Shown one piece after another: positions 33,912-36,603 of a stretch of DNA of 64,000 nucleotides (position 1 is its first letter; the number at the start of each line of letters is the position of its first letter). Under the pieces are notes generated by a model. That model did not search any database and had not been told where the DNA came from. It was given only the letters and a program-made list of their open reading frames with translations. The translations under genes were made by a program, and so were the position numbers. The stretch is from Paenibacillus lactis (lineage in GTDB: Bacteria > Bacillota > Bacilli > Paenibacillales > Paenibacillaceae). The DNA is taken from positions 186,001 to 250,000 of the forward strand of contig NZ_JAGGKI010000003.1 in NCBI RefSeq assembly GCF_017873605.1. Reading direction: 5' to 3'.

Positions 33912-34829
33912 CTATATTTGTGGACCGATATCATATGGGGTTTCTTGATATACATAGTAATTGAGCCAATTCGTAAACAATAAGTTAGCATGGGCCCGCC
34001 AGATCGAAGGAGGGTTGCTGGTCGGATCGTCATTCGGATAATAATTGCGCGGCAGCGCAATATCCAATCCCTTCGCAACATCCCGGTCATATTCCCATTT
34101 CAAGGAGTCCGGATCATATTCCGAGTGGCCGGTGGCGAATATTTGTTTGCCGTCCCTGCTTGCTACCAGGTAGATGCCTGCCTCCTCGGACTCCGACAGA
34201 ATGACCAGGTCATCGATGCCCGCAATGTCTTCGCGCCGGACCTCGGTGTGGCGGGAATGCGGAACGAAGAACATGTCGTCAAAGCCGCGGAGCAGCTTCG
34301 TACAGGGCTCGCTGACCGTATGGGAAAACACGCCGAAGCACTTCTCTTCCAAGCTGTATTTCGGCACGCCGTAATGGTAGTACAAGCCGGCCTGGGATGC
34401 CCAGCAAATATGCATGGTCGAGGTCACATGCGTCTTGCTCCACTCAAAAATTTCCGTGAGCTCCTGCCAGTAGTTGACCTCCTCGAATTCGAGCTGCTCC
34501 ACCGGAGCGCCGGTGATAATCATGCCGTCAAACCGGCGATTCTTCACTTGCTCGAACGTTTTGTAGAACGACTTTAAATGCTCAGCCGATGTGTTCTTGG
34601 ATACATGGGAGCTTGGGTGCAGCAATACAACATCGACTTGAAGCGGCGAGTTACCGATCAGCCTCAGCAGCTGGGTCTCCGTCGTTTCCTTCGTCGGCAT
34701 GAGGTTCAGAATCGCAATCCGCAGCGGGCGGATATCCTGGTGAAAGGCATGACTCTCATCCATAACAAAAATGTTCTCTCCAGCCAGCACTTCTTTGGCC
34801 GGCAGGGCATCAGGGATTTTAATTGGCAC
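33912..34829 (-). CDS. metA: Homoserine O-acyltransferase (MetA family)
   Basis: 305 aa, the normal length of MetA. Shows [28 protein letters not shown], the catalytic Cys in [16 protein letters not shown] and His in [13 protein letters not shown]. It acylates homoserine; in Bacilli the MetA family generally uses acetyl-CoA. The probable GTG start follows GAAGGAGTGAGCTTAAG. First gene of the methionine operon controlled by the SAM-I riboswitch. Confidence 0.92.
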
Positions 34830-34956: not shown

Positions 34957-35085
34957 CTCCTCTCTCATCTGCCAGGCTATACGGTCAATCATGAATCGTA
35001 TATCCTGCAAGAATTAGCACCGTGCGATATTGCCGCCGGTTGCCGGGTTTCATAGGGCTAGTCCCTCCACCTGCTCTTGATAAGA
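34957..35085 (-). promoter_or_regulatory. SAM-I riboswitch (S-box) upstream of metA
   Basis: Contains the class signatures in order on the minus strand: CTTATCAAGAG, GGTGGAGGGACTAGCCC, GAAACCCGGCAACC, GGTGCTAATTCTTGC, and TGGCAGATGAGAGAGG. SAM binding should favour the terminator at 34912-34937 and shut off metA-metI-metC. Confidence 0.96.
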
Positions 35086-35117
35086 TTTCGCTGTATTTAG
35101 TTGTATGGTTATATTGA

Positions 35118-35232: not shown

Positions 35233-35261
35233 TTGAAAGCTCCCAAACCCGGCGTTATACT
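35233..35261 (+). promoter_or_regulatory. Sigma-A promoter of the corA leader
   Basis: TTGAAA (35233-35238), 17-base spacer, TATACT (35256-35261). Transcription would start near 35268, giving an untranslated leader of about 240 bases before corA. Confidence 0.75.
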
Positions 35262-35301
35262 AGACAAGTGCTATTTAGCCCCATGATGAAAGAGGTGAAA
35301 C

Positions 35302-35418
35302 ATGAAAATGGACGGTGACCCGAGCCAGAACGTGGAAGCGAAGGATGCACAACCGCATAGGACCAGGATCAGCTTACCGGCAGAGGGCAGCGTTATTTTT
35401 CATGCGCTTTTGTCATAG
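35302..35418 (+). CDS. 38-codon leader ORF upstream of corA
   Basis: ATG preceded by AAAGAGGTGAAAC, a strong ribosome site. The peptide is polar (MKMDGDPSQNVEAKDAQPHR, then ending FHALLS) and resembles no family I know. Codons 21-27 form the 5' arm of a long stem whose 3' arm lies just before corA (35452-35471), so its translation would change the fold of the leader. I regard it as a regulatory leader ORF rather than a protein with its own job. Confidence 0.55.
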   Translation: MKMDGDPSQNVEAKDAQPHRTRISLPAEGSVIFHALLS

Positions 35419-35471
35419 TTCTCTTAGGAGAAAATCAACAAAGCCCGTACACCGGCTAAGCTGATATCCTG
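35364..35471 (+). promoter_or_regulatory. Long imperfect stem in the corA leader
   Basis: CAGGATCAGCTTACCGG (35364-35380) pairs with CCGGCTAAGCTGATATCCTG (35452-35471) in 17 pairs with two small bulges; inside it GGGC (35385-35388) pairs with GCCC (35443-35446). The corA ribosome site follows 20 bases later. Confidence 0.65.
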
Positions 35472-35508
35472 TGCCTTTAATGTACGAATGAAGAAGGAGT
35501 GATATCAG

Positions 35509-36444
35509 ATGAAAATCCGGTTGGTTGATGCGGGTGTATTTACCCCTGTTGACGATATCCAGATGACGCTGACAGCACCGGCCAGCGGCTTTTACTGGCT
35601 GGATGCGGATGTCGATGATTTAGCCGAGCTGCAGCCGCTTTTCTCCCTGCATGATCTTGCGGTGGAGGACTGCCTGAGCGAAGAGGAGCAGCGTCCGAAG
35701 ATCGAAATATATGAAAACCACTATTTTATCGTTGTAAACAGCATCCGTTTTGATGACGAGGAGATTTTCCTCCGGGCCCTCAATATTTTCCTGGGCAGAC
35801 ATTTCATCATCACGGTCACGAAACAGAAAATTCACGAGCTGCGGACCGTCAAGCCCCTTCTATGGGAAGACGAGGTCAGCACGCCCGACCGTTTCCTCTA
35901 CCTGCTGATCGACTTGGTCACGGACAACTACTTTTCGGTCGGCGACCGGATCGAAGCCCGGATCGAGAAGCTGGAGGAAGACATTCTTATTCATACCAAG
36001 AAGACGCATCTCAGCGAAATTATCGGCCTGCGAAGCGAGATTCTATGGCTGAAGAAGGTGCTGGGGCCGCAGAAGGAAGTTATCAATACGCTCAACAAAA
36101 AGGATCTTCGGCTGATCGACGATCAGCTGCAGAAATATTTCAGCGATATTTATGAGAATGCCGTGAAAATTTCGGAAACATTCGAAACCTACCGCGATTT
36201 GATGGGCAACCTGCGGGAAGCGTATCAGTCGAGTATTGCGAATCGTGCTAACGAAATCATGCGCGTATTTACCGCTATTACGACCATCTTCATCCCGCTT
36301 ACGCTGATTACAGGCATCTATGGGATGAACTTCGACAATATGCCGGAACTGCATTGGGAATATTCGTATTACGTTGTGATCGGGGTCATGGTATTCGCCG
36401 GCCTGCTGATGTTTTATTTGTTCCGAAAAAAGGACTGGATTTAA
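35509..36444 (+). CDS. corA: CorA-family magnesium/cobalt transporter
   Basis: 311 aa. Cytoplasmic alpha/beta N-domain, long helical stalk (about 145-250), two C-terminal membrane helices and the ion-selectivity motif GMN in YGMNFDNMPELHWEYSY. Ends with the basic tail RKKDWI. Forms a homopentameric channel for Mg2+. Start follows GAAGGAGTGATATCAG. It is transcribed alone from the promoter at 35233 through a structured leader. Confidence 0.94.
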   Translation: MKIRLVDAGVFTPVDDIQMTLTAPASGFYWLDADVDDLAELQPLFSLHDLAVEDCLSEEEQRPKIEIYENHYFIVVNSIRFDDEEIFLRALNIFLGRHFIITVTKQKIHELRTVKPLLWEDEVSTPDRFLYLLIDLVTDNYFSVGDRIEARIEKLEEDILIHTKKTHLSEIIGLRSEILWLKKVLGPQKEVINTLNKKDLRLIDDQLQKYFSDIYENAVKISETFETYRDLMGNLREAYQSSIANRANEIMRVFTAITTIFIPLTLITGIYGMNFDNMPELHWEYSYYVVIGVMVFAGLLMFYLFRKKDWI

Positions 36445-36562: not shown

Positions 36563-36603
36563 TAAAAAACGGTCCCACAAGTAGAAGGTTCTACTCATGG
36601 GAC
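36563..36603 (-). terminator. Terminator of the HRDC gene
   Basis: Minus strand GTCCCATGAGTAGAA, loop CC, TTCTACTTGTGGGAC then CGTTTTTT. Confidence 0.85.

Follow-up and report, generated by a model that had tools for sequence, protein, structure and literature searches.

In the genome of Paenibacillus lactis, a corA gene is preceded by a leader that contains both an upstream open reading frame (uORF) and a long potential stem, which raises the question of whether translation of the former could decide the folding of the latter, and with it the synthesis of a Mg2+ importer. The locus was examined within a stretch of 64,000 nucleotides, referred to below as the window. An earlier note on this DNA had proposed a sigma-A promoter, a uORF of 38 codons, and a 17-pair stem that would be melted by translation of the uORF. 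The features on which the analysis relies are the following.

35233–35261, + strand: sigma-A type promoter, TTGAAA-17-TATACT, found by a promoter scan, with TATACT kept in the leaders of relatives
35291–35297, + strand: Shine-Dalgarno sequence of the uORF, AGAGGTG, read from the sequence, with similar sites in relatives
35308–35418, + strand: uORF of 36 codons and a stop, MDGDPSQNVEAKDAQPHRTRISLPAEGSVIFHALLS, with an M[DE]GD-type uORF at 79 of 80 protein-fetched loci
35308–35328, + strand: conserved start of the encoded peptide, M-[ED]-G-D-(R)-P-x-(P), identified from codon-position changes over 79 tips
35355–35380, + strand: arm 1, inside the uORF, made of P1 (GCATAGGA, 35355–35362) and P2 (35368–35380), predicted to pair with arm 2
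35452–35474, + strand: arm 2, made of P2′ (35452–35465) and P1′ (TCCTGTGC, 35467–35474), predicted to pair with arm 1, with the corA ribosome site as putative alternative partner
35494–35508, + strand: arm 3, the corA Shine-Dalgarno sequence and spacer, AAGGAGTGATATCAG, from sequence and folding
35509–36444, + strand: corA, 311 amino acids, assigned to the CorA family by PF01544 (245.6 bits)

Taken alone, the promoter at 35233–35261 is weak evidence, because the scan of 2.5 kb returned 4 promoter-like sites when shuffled sequences gave 2.7 ± 1.6. The proposal of a sigma-A promoter gains its weight from the relatives instead: of 204 leaders, 193 have an exact TATACT, 4 have it with one mismatch, and 7 lack it. 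This conservation is also what argues against a transcription start downstream of 35418, which had been named as a refuting observation. Two other elements were noted in the neighborhood. A terminator-like hairpin lies 3′ of corA on the minus strand (36572–36603), and a SAM (S-box) riboswitch (34962–35086, minus strand, 75.5 bits) is found upstream of the divergent homoserine O-succinyltransferase gene (33912–34829, minus strand).

An open reading frame extending from 35302 to 35418 behind AGAGGTG does exist, as had been proposed, but the start that relatives keep is the ATG at 35308, six bases downstream; the ATG at 35302 is absent or out of frame in many of them. The uORF is therefore taken as 35308–35418, with 36 codons instead of 38. 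A search with the CorA protein only yielded 80 named loci from Paenibacillus, Saccharibacillus, and a few others, 79 of which have, upstream of corA and behind a Shine-Dalgarno sequence, a uORF that starts with M[ED]GD or a close variant. The uORF detector was positive in 3 of 4000 dinucleotide-shuffled leaders. Overall, the uORF is present in 204 of 205 leaders, 35 loci having been fetched with the motif and others with leader DNA; 182 of the 204 are distinct, and the named and unnamed sets share species. When leader DNA was used as the query, a match was obtained in all of 100 genomes of the same genus, and leaders were retrieved from 90 of them, including that of the window. Among 392 genomes of the order, 187 matched a strict motif pattern that overlooks variants such as MEGDPG.. 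and MEGDRP..; the matches listed included no control match, and all 35 motif-fetched loci examined within the order have the motif upstream of corA. The same motif occurs in 10 of the 398 genomes of a phylum-wide sample, six of these belonging to the window's own family. The occurrence of the uORF in Paenibacillus and its relatives thus appears well supported by comparison.

Three sets of sequences stand apart. The start-motif matches in the four phylum genomes outside the window's family (L208–L212) come from fetched stretches without a CorA match and were taken as chance. In Paenibacillus alkaliterrae (L081), the corA leader lacks the uORF and keeps the promoter-like sequence, providing a natural comparison. 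A contig labelled Neobacillus mesonae (L062) contains a Paenibacillus-like corA (83% identity) with its leader and is possibly misnamed.

Selection on the encoded peptide was examined by counting changes at each codon position by parsimony on the CorA tree, using 79 protein-fetched tips that were unselected for the motif. At positions 1/2/3, the changes amount to 0/0/0 for codon 1, 0/1/10 for codon 2, 0/1/4 for codon 3, 1/0/3 for codon 4, 4/5/4 for codon 5 (where an insertion shifts some clades), 7/5/13 for codon 6, 13/8/13 for codon 7, 12/7/17 for codon 8, and 12/10/23 for codon 9. In codons 10–20, each codon position underwent 12–26 changes. These counts reveal a coding signature at the start of the uORF that fades inward. 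A larger count on 124 tips agrees, the constancy of positions 1 and 2 being there by construction as these tips were picked for an M[ED]GDP start. Among the 204 uORFs, an acidic residue is found at residue 2 in 203 and at residue 4 in 203, and proline is found at residues 5–8 in all 204 and at residue 5 or 6 in 201, these being residues that the finding pattern favors. A functional micropeptide was considered as well; this reading was dropped because the codon bias weakens beyond roughly codon 9 and clades use different frames.

Codons 4–6 (35317–35325, GAC CCG AG) are nearly fixed in their nucleotides, beyond the needs of the peptide. In 150 M[ED]GDP leaders that were not motif-fetched, GAC occupies codon 4 in all 150 and CCG occupies codon 5 in 146, whereas GAC represents 43% of the Asp codons and CCG 40% of the Pro codons of the same corA genes. 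When arginine is encoded at codon 6, it is by AGG in 34 cases out of 34, although AGG makes up about 1% of the Arg codons in the neighboring corA genes. Codons 4 and 5 are not fixed in the MEGDRPKP clade, where GAC/GAT and CCG/CCA/CCT/CCC vary while the peptide is kept. Codon identity is therefore not a general requirement.

The segment 35350–35475 folds with −49.4 kcal/mol (z = −6.26), and none of 200 shuffles was as good. The 17-pair stem proposed previously thus exists and can be made longer, by adding P1 to P2. The fold of the whole leader (35270–35540) is only modestly more stable than that of shuffled sequences (z = −2.04, with 4 of 200 equally good), however, and there the partner of arm 2 is not arm 1 but the start region of corA.

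Whether arms 1 and 2 pair in relatives was evaluated on 120 non-redundant leaders, of which 71 have both arms recognizable by sequence anchors; 7 with doubtful anchors were dropped, and the named pairs were counted on the alignment of the remaining 64. In the named structure of 20 pairs, 86.2% of the cells are paired, compared with 83.1 ± 0.4% in shuffles and 25–41% when the arms are slid by 1–3 columns. Cells changed on both sides number 59, against 14.1 ± 3.3 in shuffles, none of 500 reaching that number, and 11 of the 20 pairs are changed on both sides, against 6.1 ± 1.4 (2 of 500). An alignment-free evaluation of duplexes between the uORF interior and the downstream region in the 120 leaders gave a mean z of −2.71, with 76 below −2, whereas control duplexes between the uORF interior and the corA site gave a mean z of +0.47. 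RNAalifold returned no pairs on the gappy 64-leader alignment, nor on a 53-leader alignment of the downstream part; for the latter, 60 of the 64 leaders gave references after 4 wrong arm-2 anchors were dropped, and 7 were left out by hand.

Within the uORF, the block AACYGCATAGGA...ATCAGCTTGCCGG is kept in frames that differ by clade (classes of 54, 9, and 1 atypical among the 64 leaders), which points to conservation at the RNA level. No stop interrupts the uORF frame before the end of arm 1 in any of the 64 leaders, whereas the +1 frame is open in 19 and the +2 frame in 4, as would be expected if translation of the uORF melted the stem, and the uORF stop lies about 23–59 bases beyond arm 1. 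Conservation of stem and reading frame in related genomes had been set beforehand as a test of the earlier proposal. Both are kept, with covariation of the arms and a codon-position bias at the beginning of the uORF, and the pairing of arm 1 with arm 2 can be regarded as well supported by the comparison of leaders.

Arm 2 has a putative second partner, the corA ribosome site, which was missed in the earlier note. Its segment CTGATATC (35461–35468) is complementary to GATATCAG, directly 5′ of the corA ATG. Direct duplexes between arm 2 and the corA site have only a slight advantage over shuffles (mean z = −0.82, with 20 of the 120 leaders below −2). The cost of opening the corA Shine-Dalgarno sequence was calculated with the whole uORF covered and with its start covered. 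The difference between the former and the latter averages +2.45 kcal/mol over 120 leaders, the cost being more than 1 higher in 89 and more than 1 lower in 3. For the 100 leaders of the main family, this difference amounts to +2.66 kcal/mol and becomes −0.10 when the interior is shuffled and 0.44 when the arm-1 (uORF) part is shuffled. It is weaker in the second family (n = 20), with a mean of 1.38 and a median of 0.31, the shuffled controls giving −0.71 and 0.08. These controls comprised two shuffles per leader, and the test probabilities for opening costs overstate certainty because the leaders are related. The mean opening cost in the main family is 4.70 without ribosome, 3.25 with the uORF start covered, and 5.92 with the uORF covered. 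The refolded state is striking in leaders L064, L063, and L035, where a long helix spans the corA Shine-Dalgarno sequence. A test for resemblance between arm 1 and the corA site was not significant overall (10 of 120 leaders with z > 2, two of which are overlap artefacts).

For the window itself, folding of the ribosome-free leader favors pairing of arm 2 with the corA site. With a covered uORF start, arm 2 is divided between arm 1 and the corA site through branch migration; P1 is then hardly formed, and part of P2 alone displaces the pairing between arm 2 and the corA site. For the corA site of the window, the mean probability of being unpaired is 0.52 vs 0.49 in the two states, a contrast that depends on the boundaries chosen. 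The case rests more on the set of relatives than on the sequence of the window, because of this preference of the free leader and the near absence of P1. Folding during transcription may also bear on the states of the switch.

It is probable that the leader works as an attenuator-type switch in which a leader peptide controls the translation of corA, with a Mg2+ trigger, an early drop-off of ribosomes, and a translational output that we infer. The anatomy of this switch is fairly well supported, its closing of the corA site by arm 2 is predicted from folding, and a sensor function of the uORF leader is likely by analogy with known leader peptides. The layout of the peptide suggests that Mg2+ would be the signal. 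Ribosomes would be loaded on the uORF by its strong ribosome site and would translate its M[E/D]GD(R)P beginning. Those reaching the uORF stop would cover arm 1, so that arm 2 would fold on the corA Shine-Dalgarno sequence and start region, and corA would be off. At low Mg2+, ribosomes would abort in the first codons of the uORF, as happens with acidic/proline nascent chains in E. coli and Salmonella, and cover its start alone. Arm 1 would then be free to pair with arm 2, the corA site would be released, and the Mg2+ importer would be made. Without any ribosome, the corA site is intermediate or closed in the models, because the start region of the uORF is then free to compete for its interior. 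A simpler scheme, in which the absence of uORF translation turns corA on, is not borne out by the ribosome-free folds, given opening costs of 4.70 without ribosome and 3.25 with the start covered. The output is probably translational, closer to that of mgtQ than to that of corL, because arm 2 has the corA ribosome site as its putative second partner.

The M-box (ykoK) Mg2+ riboswitch, RF00380, is known in Bacillota. It resembles the present case in being a leader that controls Mg2+ uptake genes, and differs in that its covariance model is unmatched here: RF00380 matches neither the leader nor any other part of the genome, which agrees with the earlier statement that the leader is not an M-box. 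No Rfam family was found in the leader at the gathering threshold, and sR24 alone appeared at E ≤ 10 (E = 0.059, 18.9 bits vs a gathering score of 36). With stricter filters, RF00380 was found in 10 of 100 genomes of the same genus, with one to four copies each, and had no match in 90. Besides this corA, the genome has two CorA-family genes and a single mgtE gene; a uORF of this kind was not seen in the 420 bases preceding their furthest-upstream starts, and their true starts may lie further down. In the open subset of PubMed Central, where subscription papers are mostly absent, narrow search terms listed no paper whose title or opening lines of the abstract describe such a leader in Paenibacillus or upstream of a Gram-positive corA. 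A uORF controlled by an M-box in M. tuberculosis (2026, excerpt of PMC12810186) is a different arrangement.

The closest known systems are found in enterobacteria. In E. coli, ribosomes translating MgtL drop off at EPDP when Mg2+ is low, and changing both Glu2 and Asp4 abolishes the effect studied (PMC11282234). The mgtL leader of mgtA in E. coli and Salmonella shares with the present uORF the acidic residues at positions 2 and 4 and an adjacent proline at the beginning, and, as predictions here, the repression of a Mg2+ importer by efficient uORF translation and alternative RNA structures (PMC11282234 and PMC11552253). In contrast, mgtL leads to Rho-dependent termination, whereas the predicted target here is the corA ribosome site; residue 3 is Pro in EPDP and Gly here, and the transporter and the phylum differ. 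With mgtQ, in the mgtC–mgtB intergenic region of Salmonella, ribosome destabilization by Asp2/Glu5 frees the mgtB ribosome site, with stems 1:2 and 3:4 opposed to stem 2:3 (excerpt of PMC8092293). Alternative stems by which the ribosome site of a Mg2+ transporter is masked or exposed, and a release favored by a ribosome on the uORF start, are described in that excerpt and suggested here by folding. The mgtQ uORF has 8 codons and lies within an operon, as given there, whereas 36 codons are found here in the 5′ leader of corA, with arm 1 deep inside the uORF. The corL leader of Salmonella and E. coli has in common with this one a uORF upstream of corA and an inverse relation between uORF translation and corA, predicted here; it works via Rho and has fewer acidic and proline residues than mgtL, whereas the acidic/proline start is the conserved part here (excerpt of PMC11552253). 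In B. subtilis, Asp-Pro motifs can stall ribosomes without EF-P (PMC11381351). The likeness to corL and mgtL seen previously is strengthened by the conserved M[E/D]GD(R)P start, which had not been mentioned. The corA leader may thus work like mgtL or mgtQ, and its uORF is likely, by analogy, a Gram-positive counterpart of the Salmonella Mg2+ leader peptides. The likeness is in layout and predicted scheme, and membership by descent cannot be claimed.

The constraint on codons 4–6 could have another origin. The same switch could respond to the decoding of the fixed GAC-CCG, through charged tRNA-Pro, EF-P, or tRNA-Pro modification, and not to a Mg2+-dependent destabilization by the nascent chain as such. 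The use of GAC, CCG, and AGG far above the codon usage of corA would fit, as would a paper cited in PMC11552253 whose title links Mg2+ control of mgtA to the proline codons of mgtL. The MEGDRPKP clade, which varies the codons and keeps the peptide, points the other way, and we hold this reading to be unlikely. Fixation at the nucleotide level of GACCCGAG and of the AACYGCATAGG block, together with the strong fold of 35350–35475, might instead reflect an undescribed riboswitch, the RNA itself sensing Mg2+ or another ligand and the uORF being secondary. Such a role of the RNA accords poorly with the changes in codons 2–4, which are mostly at third positions, with the apparent 3-base in-frame insertion that distinguishes the MEGDP and MEGDRP clades, and with the bias towards the uORF frame among those open through arm 1; the leader is also without an Rfam match. 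A riboswitch is, on this evidence, quite unlikely.

The output could also be exerted at another level. In E. coli and Salmonella, corL translation opposes corA via Rho (excerpt of PMC11552253), and termination of transcription within the leader by Rho or another factor, instead of control of translation initiation, would be the direct parallel. A factor would be needed, because the intrinsic-terminator scan found no terminator-like site on the + strand here. Because folding, set against shuffled controls, predicts that the corA ribosome site is closed, termination in the leader is distinctly unlikely to be the mechanism. The small contrast predicted for the window between the two states, by the measure of unpaired probability, would even suit a constitutive leader, in which the uORF serves to hold the RNA open or to couple translation and senses nothing. 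A peptide beginning kept across the order, and arms that covary, would be hard to explain without regulation, which makes a constitutive leader very unlikely.

A switch at corA driven by early ribosome drop-off remains the preferred reading. Its extension to a whole Gram-positive order is, in our judgment, slightly better than an even proposition: there, an independently evolved M[E/D]GD(R)P peptide would destabilize the ribosome at low Mg2+, expose the corA site, and do the work of the M-box, the exact GAC-CCG also mattering in most clades. If this is true, Mg2+ sensing by ribosome destabilization would be no peculiarity of enterobacteria, being found again in Gram-positives with a nearly identical acidic/proline start. 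The approximately 120 divergent leaders would constitute a natural set in which to look for nascent-chain residues that destabilize ribosomes outside of E. coli. They would also hint at how genomes of the same genus without an M-box handle Mg2+.
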